Source: Psychrobacillus soli (lineage in GTDB: Bacteria > Bacillota > Bacilli > Bacillales_A > Planococcaceae). From it: a DNA stretch of 37,410 nucleotides. Location of the stretch: assembly GCF_006861775.1 (NCBI RefSeq), contig NZ_VDGG01000038.1:1-37410 (forward strand), read 5' to 3'. Below the pieces are notes generated by a model, which was not told the origin of the DNA, searched no databases, and worked only from the letters and a program-made list of their open reading frames with translations. Below are positions 24,283 through 27,203 of the stretch, piece after piece. The position numbers were made by a program, and so were the translations under genes. Position 1 is the stretch's first letter. Each line of letters begins with the position of its first letter.

Positions 24283-24448
24283 AGATATTTCTCCTCTCTT
24301 CTTTCCACCGACACTTTATATCGACTGAAAATTATGATACATTTTTAAGTATAACTCATATTATAATCAATGTATGTGAAAATGTCACGCATTTTTATTT
24401 TAGCGATTCAACTCGCTAAAGTGTGTGCCTGAAAAAGGACGTGGGAAA

Positions 24449-26584
24449 TTGGCAGCTAAGTTATTTGCATTAGATATAGGAACAAGATCTGTAGTAGGAA
24501 TTATTTTAGAAGAGCGCAATGAGAACTTTCATGTTGTTGATATATTAGTAGAGGAACATAAAGAACGTGCAATGGTCGATGGGCAAATACATAATGTACT
24601 AAAAGTCGCTGAAGTCATTCAATCGATCAAAAAGCAGCTGGAGGAAAAACATGGACCACTTGAAAAAGTAAGTGTAGCTGCTGCAGGACGAGCACTAAAA
24701 ACAGAACAAGCAGAGATTAAAATGGATATTAAAAATAGACCTATTTTCTCTGAAGATGACATAAGCCGATTAGAGCTTACTGCCGTACAACAAGCACAAA
24801 ACAATTTAGTGCAAAATGATTCGGACAAAGAATCTAGTCACTATTACTGCGTCGGATATAGTGTTTTATACTACCGATTAGATGGAGAAGAAATTGGTAG
24901 TTTGGTAGACCAACAAGGGCGAGAGGCATCCATAGAAGTAATTGCAACTTTTTTGCCAAGGGTAGTAGTAGAATCATTACTTTCTGCTTTAAAAAGGGCT
25001 AACTTAGAAATGGAAGCTTTGACATTGGAGCCAATTGCCGCGATTAATGTATTAATCCCTCCTACCATGCGACGACTGAATGTTGCACTTGTGGACATAG
25101 GTGCTGGAACTTCTGATATTGCCATTACAGATTATGGTACAGTTGTCGCATATGGGATGGTCCCAAATGCAGGAGATGAAATTACAGAAGCGTTAAGTGA
25201 TCATTACTTACTCGATTTTCCACTCGCGGAAGATGCAAAAAGAGCAATTAATACGAATGACTTTATCCCGATACAAGATATTCTAGGATTTGATCAAAAC
25301 ATCCCAAAAGAAGAAATGATTGCAGCTATCAAGCCAGCAACGTTGGAACTCGCAATATCCATTTCGACCGAAATCCTCAGGTTGAATAATAACCGACCGA
25401 CAAAAGCCGTCATGCTCGTTGGTGGAGGAAGCTTAACCCCTTCCCTTACGACGATTTTAGCAGAAAAACTAAATTTACCAGCAAATCGGGTGGCAGTCCG
25501 AGGAATTGATGCGATCCAAAACTTAACAAAAGAAGCACATATTCCAATATCTCCAGAACTGGTTACACCAATCGGAATTGCTATCGCAGCAAAACGGGCA
25601 CCAATACAATATATGTCTGTAGAAGTGAACAGCCAAGTCGTTCGCCTATTTGAGCTAAAAGAAATGACTGTAGGGGATGCACTGCTAGCAGCGAATATTC
25701 CTACCCGGAAGTTGTACGGCAAGCCAGGAGCAGCACTTTCTGTGGAAGTGAATGGACAAACGATACATATTCCAGGAGAACATGGCAAACCAGCTGTAAT
25801 AATGTTAAATGGACAGAAAACTAATACAAAAGCCGCGATCAAAAACAAAGATATTATTGAATTATTAGAAGGCGAGAATGGGAAAGAAGGTTCCGCTTCC
25901 GTACGTGATTTAATCGATGATGCTTCTGTTAAAACGATTACTTTTCAAGGTGTTTTACATACAGTTGAACCTTCAGTAAAGGTTAATGCAAAGAAGGTCT
26001 CTCTCGATACACCGTTAAAGGAAAGGGATAAAATTACGGTTGATACACCACAAACAGTTGAACAAATTTTACATGCAATTCGAAAAGAAAGTTATGTAGC
26101 CCAGTTGAATCCGTATATGTTTACAATTGAGGATAAAAATCATTATATACCGGCCTTTTCATCAAAATTATTGTTAAATGGAAAATCAGTAAAGCTTTCC
26201 TACGCAGTTCAAGACAATGATGTTTTAGAAATAAGTGCAGCGAATCCTCCAACTCTACAACAACTTGCCGTTCAATTGGAGAAGAAATTCATGGAGCATA
26301 TAGTACTTACTTTCCAAGGAGAAGCAATAGAGCTTACGAGGGAATGTGCAGTCGTGTCAATTGGAGAAATGAAGTTATCCCTTTCGGATAGTATTCCAAG
26401 CGGAACTATCTTACAGTGGAAGCAAGTAAACTATGCTCCGTGGATTTTCCAAGATGTTTTCCGTTTTACGGATTGGAATATGCCAGAAGGGGCTGGTTCA
26501 TTTCAAATTATTCGAAATGGACAGCCCTCTCGGTTTGACGAAGAAATCTTTGGCGGCGATCAGTTAGAAATTGTGTTTAAATAA
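24449..26584 (+). CDS. FtsA-like actin-fold ATPase with C-terminal array of small beta modules
   Basis: Encodes about 711 residues. The N-terminal ~390 are an FtsA/PilM-type actin fold: phosphate-1 loop FALDIGTRSVVG, an SHS2/1C-like insert (VSVAAAGRALKT ... ISRLEL), phosphate-2 loop VDIGAGTSDIAI, and adenosine motif VGGGS. The C-terminal ~320 residues lack the FtsA membrane-targeting helix. They contain four or five similar units in which a strand with (N)G is followed about 15-20 residues later by a D-x-(I/L)-E-I turn-strand, reminiscent of beta-grasp modules. The chosen TTG (24449) has AAAGGACG upstream; an in-frame GTG at 24425 has no ribosome site but cannot be excluded. It is not the division gene ftsA itself, which is half this length. 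Function unknown; a scaffold or filament role at the membrane or division site is inference. Confidence 0.85.
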   Translation: MAAKLFALDIGTRSVVGIILEERNENFHVVDILVEEHKERAMVDGQIHNVLKVAEVIQSIKKQLEEKHGPLEKVSVAAAGRALKTEQAEIKMDIKNRPIFSEDDISRLELTAVQQAQNNLVQNDSDKESSHYYCVGYSVLYYRLDGEEIGSLVDQQGREASIEVIATFLPRVVVESLLSALKRANLEMEALTLEPIAAINVLIPPTMRRLNVALVDIGAGTSDIAITDYGTVVAYGMVPNAGDEITEALSDHYLLDFPLAEDAKRAINTNDFIPIQDILGFDQNIPKEEMIAAIKPATLELAISISTEILRLNNNRPTKAVMLVGGGSLTPSLTTILAEKLNLPANRVAVRGIDAIQNLTKEAHIPISPELVTPIGIAIAAKRAPIQYMSVEVNSQVVRLFELKEMTVGDALLAANIPTRKLYGKPGAALSVEVNGQTIHIPGEHGKPAVIMLNGQKTNTKAAIKNKDIIELLEGENGKEGSASVRDLIDDASVKTITFQGVLHTVEPSVKVNAKKVSLDTPLKERDKITVDTPQTVEQILHAIRKESYVAQLNPYMFTIEDKNHYIPAFSSKLLLNGKSVKLSYAVQDNDVLEISAANPPTLQQLAVQLEKKFMEHIVLTFQGEAIELTRECAVVSIGEMKLSLSDSIPSGTILQWKQVNYAPWIFQDVFRFTDWNMPEGAGSFQIIRNGQPSRFDEEIFGGDQLEIVFK

Positions 26585-26623
26585 GAAAACACGAAACGGG
26601 TATATGCCGTTTCGTGTTTTCTT
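26583..26623. terminator. Bidirectional terminator between the FtsA-like gene and ytxH
   Basis: A near-perfect 17-bp stem (26583-26599 with 26607-26623) is formed over the stop codons of both convergent genes, with a T-rich flank on the plus side. Confidence 0.85.
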
Positions 26624-27203
26624 ATTTATTTGAGTTATTAGTACCTACTACTGCTTCTTTAATCGCTTCTGCAACCGCTGTAGTATCTTCTTGCTCTGCC
26701 GCTACTTCTTCTTCTGTTGTATGTGAAATAGTTTCCATATAATCCATTGGTTCTTCACCTTCATATGAAGCTGTACCGTCGTCTAAAGGAGAAGTTGGGT
26801 TCCCCTTGATGGACTTCACTTTATCTACTAATTGACCTGATTGCTCTTGTAATTGCTTCGAGATTTGCGTTGTTTTCTCCTTGGCAGTCGAAGAAAAATC
26901 GATTGTTTTTTCTTTTAATTGCCCTGCTTGCGTAGAAAGATTGCCTCGAAGTTCTGATCCAGTTTTAGGAGCTAATAATAATGCGGTCGCGGCGCCGATA
27001 ATACCACCAATGAATACTCCAATAAGAAAGTCTTTCCCGTTTACTTCTTCATCCCGATACACATTTTCTCTCGTTTCGTTGTAGTAAGGAACTGGTGGAT
27101 AATTTGGAGCAGCTTGTCTATCATACGAAGGCTGATTTGCATAATATTCATGATTATAGGACGCTTCATTATAATTTGGCTTTTTTGATTCGTGGTTGCT
27201 CAT
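26622..27203 (-). CDS. ytxH: YtxH-domain general stress protein
   Basis: Encodes 193 residues. A Tyr/Asn/Pro-rich N-terminal stretch (about 1-55) precedes the YtxH core: a Gly-rich hydrophobic segment (FLIGVFIGGIIGAATALLLAP, about 58-80, read in two halves) then PKTGSELR and a long amphipathic helix; the tail is acidic. It is probably membrane-associated. The molecular role is unknown; in B. subtilis the ytxGHJ operon is induced by sigma-B. It starts 14 bases after ytxG. ytxJ, the third gene of the B. subtilis operon, is missing here. Confidence 0.88.
   Translation of the reverse strand: MSNHESKKPNYNEASYNHEYYANQPSYDRQAAPNYPPVPYYNETRENVYRDEEVNGKDFLIGVFIGGIIGAATALLLAPKTGSELRGNLSTQAGQLKEKTIDFSSTAKEKTTQISKQLQEQSGQLVDKVKSIKGNPTSPLDDGTASYEGEEPMDYMETISHTTEEEVAAEQEDTTAVAEAIKEAVVGTNNSNK

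Follow-up and report, generated by a model that had tools for sequence, protein, structure and literature searches.

Actin-like ATPases with a tail of ubiquitin-like units form a distinct family in the Bacillota and are candidate morphogenesis scaffolds

Here, we describe a protein, encoded in a 37,410-nucleotide stretch of the Psychrobacillus soli genome (the window), that joins an FtsA/PilM-type actin-like body to a string of ubiquitin-like beta-grasp units. We propose that it belongs to a distinct, old family of the Bacillota, made up of cytosolic actin-like ATPases with three to five ThiS/TGS-type beads, and that these proteins most likely act as ATP-switched scaffolds in morphogenesis, a reading in which we place about as much belief as doubt. 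About half of the sampled Bacillota genomes carry such an actin-like bead protein. The earlier note on this DNA, made from the letters alone, had named a published characterization of an ortholog as what would overturn its proposal; full-text literature searches (with subscription papers and preprints outside their scope) found no characterized member, and the family is apparently unstudied. We take B. subtilis to lack it, in which case the standard model organism could not have revealed it.

The gene occupies positions 24449 to 26584 of the forward strand, just where the earlier note had read an FtsA-like protein with a repeated tail, and encodes 711 residues from a TTG start codon. The ORF program had instead begun at a GTG at 24425 (719 residues); a Shine-Dalgarno-like AAAGGA precedes the TTG, which is kept in 19 aligned upstream sequences at the Psychrobacillus level. 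As had been claimed, the gene sits among division and wall genes, since ezrA, a class A PBP gene, murC, and an FtsK-type gene (presumably sftA) were found in the window; we assume that B. subtilis has no counterpart at this place. The nearest genes, aroA and ytxH, both lie on the opposite strand, and the gene is therefore not in an operon in this genome. The YtxH-family protein gene (26622 to 27203, minus strand; PF12732, 74.6 bits) is the convergent downstream neighbor. Among the structural matches of the window protein is PDB entry 9a51, titled "Integrative model of MBL-YTXH by crosslinking MS," which ties YtxH to the actin homologue Mbl and makes contact between the window protein and YtxH worth testing; a full-text literature search on YtxH with Mbl found nothing. 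The genome also holds a canonical ftsA directly before ftsZ on another contig (C44), from which the window gene (C34, beside aroA) differs in being a separate gene that coexists with ftsA and does not adjoin ftsZ. Among the matches listed, the best (91% identity) is a record without a name, and the best named ones (90% identity) are from Psychrobacillus. Record names in the family, again among the matches listed, run from cell division protein FtsA, PilM, and rod shape-determining protein to SHS2 domain protein, actin-like ATPase, and hypothetical, so the name of the family is unsettled.

Residues 1 to 385 (24449 to 25603, plus strand) form the FtsA/PilM-type actin-like ATPase domain. The AlphaFold model and structural comparison agree on an FtsA-type fold across residues 1 to 384, which upholds the fold assigned earlier. 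The nucleotide-binding loops, all of which had been read as present, show little or no variation across 61 members. The phosphate-1 loop D9-I-G-T12 (24473 to 24484) and the adenosine loop G325-G-G327 (25421 to 25429) are invariant, and the catalytic-type E194-P with the phosphate-2 loop D216-I-G-A-G-T-S-D223 (25028 to 25117; all on the plus strand) is at least nearly so; the roles of these loops are ones that we presume from the actin/FtsA fold. Conservation is lower in the tail than in the body, with mean column entropies of 1.25 to 1.66 bits before residue 461 and of 2.3 to 2.8 bits from that residue on. The model has a pTM of 0.57, which makes the arrangement of the parts uncertain.

With the whole model as the query, the structural search returned FtsA as the closest fold, ahead of PilM over the whole body. 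FtsA (TIGR01174/PF14450) is also the best NCBIfam match among the named families, and the window protein shares its whole body fold and nucleotide loops. However, the window protein scores 79 bits against the FtsA equivalog TIGR01174, the cut-off of which is 175.85, so that a "second FtsA," as first proposed, holds for the fold but is too strong as a statement of membership. The window protein also lacks the C-terminal amphipathic membrane helix of FtsA, and its family adds 3 to 5 beta-grasp-like units. It is longer than FtsA, though by about 1.65-fold rather than nearly twofold (711 residues versus 430 for the canonical FtsA of the same genome, which ends in a K/F-rich segment). The MreB model TIGR00904 gives 23.1 bits against a cut-off of 365.75.

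Two other named groups of ATPases have to be weighed here. A role like that of PilM, as the cytoplasmic platform of a pilus or secretion apparatus, would account for PilM_2 being the best Pfam match and for the PilM name borne by many records among the matches listed. We consider it very improbable, given that TIGR01175 (PilM) yields 57.7 bits against a cut-off of 133, that FtsA is the better structural match, that the protein has an extra tail, and that pilus genes were not seen beside the window gene, nor any pil gene among the annotated neighbors of the family (few of those outside the Bacilli being annotated). Alternatively, the protein might be a chaperone- or reactivase-like ATPase, akin to Hsp70, EutJ, or DDR, whose target for remodeling is an envelope or metabolic complex and whose beads serve as a substrate adaptor. 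The EutJ and DDR models do match below threshold, Hsp70 chains appear among the lower structural matches, and Hsp70 likewise consists of an ATPase body followed by a beta-rich tail. Nevertheless, FtsA and PilM fit the whole body better, and no kept chaperone neighbor was seen save for a CtsR-McsB-ClpC-like stress cluster (names by eye) downstream of the FtsA-like gene in L083, L084, and L090; we judge this alternative to be quite improbable.

The tail, residues 386 to 711, was cut into five beta-grasp-like units on the plus strand, each drawn from profile comparison. Unit 1 (residues 386 to 481; 25604 to 25891) is the most conserved by column conservation and matches a profile of the units at 406 to 473; unit 2 (482 to 536; 25892 to 26056) matches that profile over its full extent (E = 4e-14, the window being in the profile). 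Unit 3 (537 to 599; 26057 to 26245) is backed by Pfam and the unit profile, unit 4 (600 to 661; 26246 to 26431) by the unit profile, and unit 5 (662 to 711 plus the stop codon; 26432 to 26584) by the AlphaFold model and the unit profile. All 10 pairs of units align profile to profile over 49 to 69 columns (Prob 82.6 to 98.5, E ≤ 1.1e-6), whereas 30 control pairs of a unit with an N-terminal segment reach a Prob of at most 0.31. Adjoining segments overlap by construction, by 3 to 10 residues in the tail; among the 15 N-terminal pairs, 3 neighbors sharing 11 to 16 residues score a Prob of 92 to 97 over just those residues, and the other 12 stay at or below 0.34. The profile pairs, the unit profile, and the Pfam models thus bear out the repeated beta-grasp-like tail, and the structure prediction shows helix/hairpin/strand units across 386 to 711, with block pLDDT values of 80 to 91 but of 68 to 75 at about 381 to 420 and 74 at the C-terminal tip.

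When residues 386 to 711 are scanned without the body, their whole-sequence scores exceed the Pfam cut-offs for both ThiS (32.6 versus 22.5 bits) and TGS (22.7 versus 22.2 bits). The best ThiS stretch (residues 510 to 595) spans units 2 and 3, and the TGS stretch (576 to 595) falls within unit 3. No single stretch reaches an E value of 0.01 or the Pfam threshold by itself, so the whole-sequence scores sum several weak units; with the whole protein as the query, TGS falls below its cut-off (18.7 bits) and ThiS is not listed. Across 30 diverse tails (E ≤ 0.01), ThiS matches 26, Ub-Mut7C 21, TGS 16, and S4 7; across 61 whole members (E of 0.1), the counts are 34 for ThiS, 35 for Ub-Mut7C, and 24 for TGS. 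The unit profile was built from units 2 to 5 in an alignment of the window protein with 44 relatives (45 sequences). It finds five units in 40/40 Bacilli members, all of them inside the profile, and in the 60 members of other classes, which lie outside it, it finds five units in 22, four in 15, three in 21, two in 1, and one in 1, with no match in the body of any of the 60. These 40 and 60 loci, like the 12 gene-less genomes discussed below, were hand-picked rather than drawn at random.

No solved structure matched the tail, the structural searches with the whole model being filled by the actin body. A profile search of PDB sequences with the tail gave a best E value of 0.017, which is not significant, and a tail-only model from 4 sequences had a pLDDT of 30.7. 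Neither is usable, and the beta-grasp assignment consequently rests on the Pfam models and on the secondary structure in the model of the whole protein. The units match the ubiquitin-like beta-grasp models ThiS, TGS, and Ub-Mut7C (PF02597, PF02824, and PF14451), but unlike ThiS/MoaD they are tandem and internal and have no free C-terminal Gly-Gly, so they are not ThiS-type sulfur carriers. The protein ends in ...GDQLEIVFK, with the last strand of the model at 705 to 710, and the C termini of 22 members, inspected by eye, stop at the last unit or carry a short or disordered extension; the membrane helix is absent, as the earlier note had read. Members from one taxonomic family (f81; L082 and L098 to L102) bear long extensions, Ala/Lys-rich or charged at the N terminus and disordered at the C terminus, and their genomes give two or three ftsZ-model matches, some below cut-off. 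An FtsZ-like C-terminal peptide in this group was considered and rejected, the motif being common only to three members of one genus.

Long FtsA-like proteins, which the earlier note had believed to exist elsewhere in the Bacillales, proved to be widespread. The gene is present in 174/250 genomes of the window's taxonomic family (E < 1e-100), 123/398 of the class Bacilli, and 194/348 of the phylum Bacillota, the last count including G859, whose match is weak (E = 6e-27), and G695, whose match is split. The genome sets are species samples, and the lists behind 174 and 194 (and behind 192 and 299 below) were transcribed by hand. That 76 of the 250 genomes in the window's taxonomic family lack the gene indicates that it is dispensable over evolution. 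Conservation next to aroA is high, with aroA within 4 kb of the gene in 36/40 of the Bacilli loci. Among the 12 gene-less genomes, 11 retain both the ccpA-aroA side and the murC-sftA side (the twelfth only aroA), and in 10 of these 11 no match to the window protein lies between the flanks; in G047 (locus L137), 56 residues remain in place as a remnant (62% identity), 166 bp away from aroA. Given the retained flanks, the gene was very likely once present in these 11 genomes and then lost, and its absence from members of 7 of the 19 genera in this taxonomic family suggests more than one loss. In a tree of 65 sequences, the 41 Bacilli members fall within a group of 49 leaves, a grouping in keeping with mostly vertical descent.

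The distribution also bears on a role in sporulation, in which the protein would serve as a factor at asymmetric division or engulfment. In the window's taxonomic family, the gene occurs in 158/183 genomes positive for SpoIVA (over cut-off) versus 16/67 others, and in the phylum set it occurs in 178/299 SpoIVA genomes (E ≤ 1e-40) versus 16/49 others, counts that ignore relatedness and are both inflated by it. However, 16 genomes of the taxonomic family have the gene without SpoIVA over cut-off and 25 have SpoIVA without the gene, and 121 of the 299 SpoIVA-positive phylum genomes lack it. We rejected a strict link, since gene and SpoIVA each occur without the other, and regard a sporulation factor as improbable.

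The connection with morphogenesis, which we draw from the fold and from gene order, is supported by loci in three taxonomic families of other classes (f132, f88, and f157). In 8 of the 60 non-Bacilli loci (L095, L143 to L146, L147, L148, and L182), mreC-mreD-PBP2-minC-minD-minE precede the gene and rodA follows it, all on one strand, although 7 of the 8 were fetched after L095, 6 of them for a shared family or short form, and the count is thus not that of a random sample. The gene starts 14 to 24 nt after minE in six of these loci, overlaps it in one, and starts 139 nt after it in one. Pfam confirmed MreB, MreC, MreD, PBP2, MinC, a MinD-type ATPase, MinE, and RodA in L095 and MinE and RodA in L147 and L182; the remaining loci were identified by BLAST. 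The members encoded there are of a short form (587 to 599 residues), and all 8 genomes also carry canonical FtsA. Set against the connection, there is no morphogenesis operon in the window genome or at most loci, and in 52 of the 60 the mre-min-rodA cluster was not seen in the fetched stretch, some stretches ending at contig ends. MreB/Mbl, then, has in common with the family both the actin fold and, at these 8 loci, a place in the mre cluster. By eye, mreB and a flagellar-rod-like gene also lie upstream of the FtsA-like gene in L083 and L090.

From its fold and loops, the actin body would bind ATP and would then probably switch or assemble, or dock on an envelope complex. The bead string, to judge from its makeup, may replace the membrane helix of FtsA as a long multivalent docking arm, which could keep partner proteins close to the Min system and to the elongation machinery (MreBCD-PBP2-RodA). 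None of the observations points to the binding of wall precursors or other ligands by the tail, which the earlier note had raised as a possibility. Its tandem ubiquitin-like beads and, in some lineages, its place within an mre-min-rodA cluster make this cytoskeletal ATPase a candidate, open to direct testing, for a coupler of elongation and division-site control.

In a different reading, the protein would be a Z-ring partner and an alternative to FtsA: it would double FtsA in most genomes, replace it where it is missing, and reach the membrane via a partner. FtsA is missing from some members of the phylum; C. difficile has none, according to the accessible parts of two papers (PMC10693644 and PMC12548448), and ftsA is listed as absent in Ammonifex and Caldicellulosiruptor in those of a third (PMC3533761). 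In our phylum set (n = 348), 122 genomes have both proteins, 72 the family protein alone, 70 FtsA alone, and 84 neither, which indicates that the family does not depend on FtsA and is not a strict replacement for it. FtsA presence was here taken as E < 1e-50, a stand-in for the TIGR01174 cut-off that lists 192 genomes against a tally of 197 over cut-off, so that up to 5 fewer of the 194 carriers may lack FtsA than the 72 counted. Besides these carriers and the closeness of the fold, the alternative draws on 8 members from genomes in the FtsA-less list, which score 75.4 to 107.1 bits for FtsA versus 39.7 to 68 for PilM, and on records with Desulfitobacterium and Heliorestis names among the listed matches to members from FtsA-less loci. 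Yet the protein has no membrane helix, in the window's genome its gene does not adjoin ftsZ, and 122 genomes hold both; the 84 with neither imply that lacking FtsA does not demand the family protein. Some "FtsA-less" genomes (e.g., f104), moreover, show a second, sub-threshold FtsA match and may encode a divergent FtsA below cut-off. Overall, we find an alternative FtsA doubtful. A second family-cluster match in L083, L090, and L095 was considered as canonical FtsA and rejected, tree and sequences identifying it as MreB; likewise, the "second ftsA" of a B. mycoides paper (PMC3762067) is, in the accessible part of that source, a gel band and not a gene.

More often than the mre-min cluster (11 versus 8 of the 60 non-Bacilli loci), the upstream neighbor is a CheR-type methyltransferase gene, which starts 0.8 to 2.5 kb away on the same strand in 11 taxonomic families. 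It is Pfam confirmed in 4 of the 11 (L077, L171, L173, and L177), and 9 of the 11 genomes are in the list without canonical FtsA; two further loci were left out, the CheR-type gene being 9.4 kb downstream in one and on the opposite strand 5.3 kb upstream in the other. In L171 (8140 to 9472) and L173 (4608 to 5955), the CheR-type gene and a hexapeptide-repeat (acyltransferase-like) gene immediately precede the FtsA-like gene; both also occur together in L077 and L080, and all four genomes are in the list without canonical FtsA. A bolder form of the scaffold reading, which we think unlikely, would make the family a phylum-wide morphogenesis factor whose bead arm couples Min/Z-ring positioning to RodA-PBP2 elongation and which takes the place of FtsA via partners where FtsA is absent, perhaps modified by the adjoining CheR-type methyltransferase; the family would then have been overlooked because its members are filed as FtsA or PilM.

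Upstream of the window gene lies a promoter-like site of the divergent aroA, GTGACA-17-TATAAT (24360 to 24388, minus strand), with 11/12 consensus bases, although one such site was found where 1.1 are expected by chance. By eye, many Bacilli loci show the GTGACA/TATAAT pair, equally spaced, upstream of the gene. Within 160 nt upstream, 22/40 Bacilli loci and 1/20 others have a GTCAC box, versus about 9% of random windows, and the box appears (by eye) to keep a fixed distance from TATAAT; we therefore rejected a conserved upstream regulatory RNA, the box being the divergent aroA promoter read backwards. Between this promoter and the start of the window gene is an inverted repeat, TTTAGCG-N8-CGCTAAA (24399 to 24420), with no Rfam match. 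The pattern was rejected as a regulon signal, since it occurs at 2 places in the genome versus 3 for a control pattern, its other place being a terminator-like hairpin. Its arms are exact in 14 of the 19 aligned Psychrobacillus-level sequences and differ by one base in the other 5, and in several other Bacilli the place of the repeat is taken, as judged by eye, by another hairpin.
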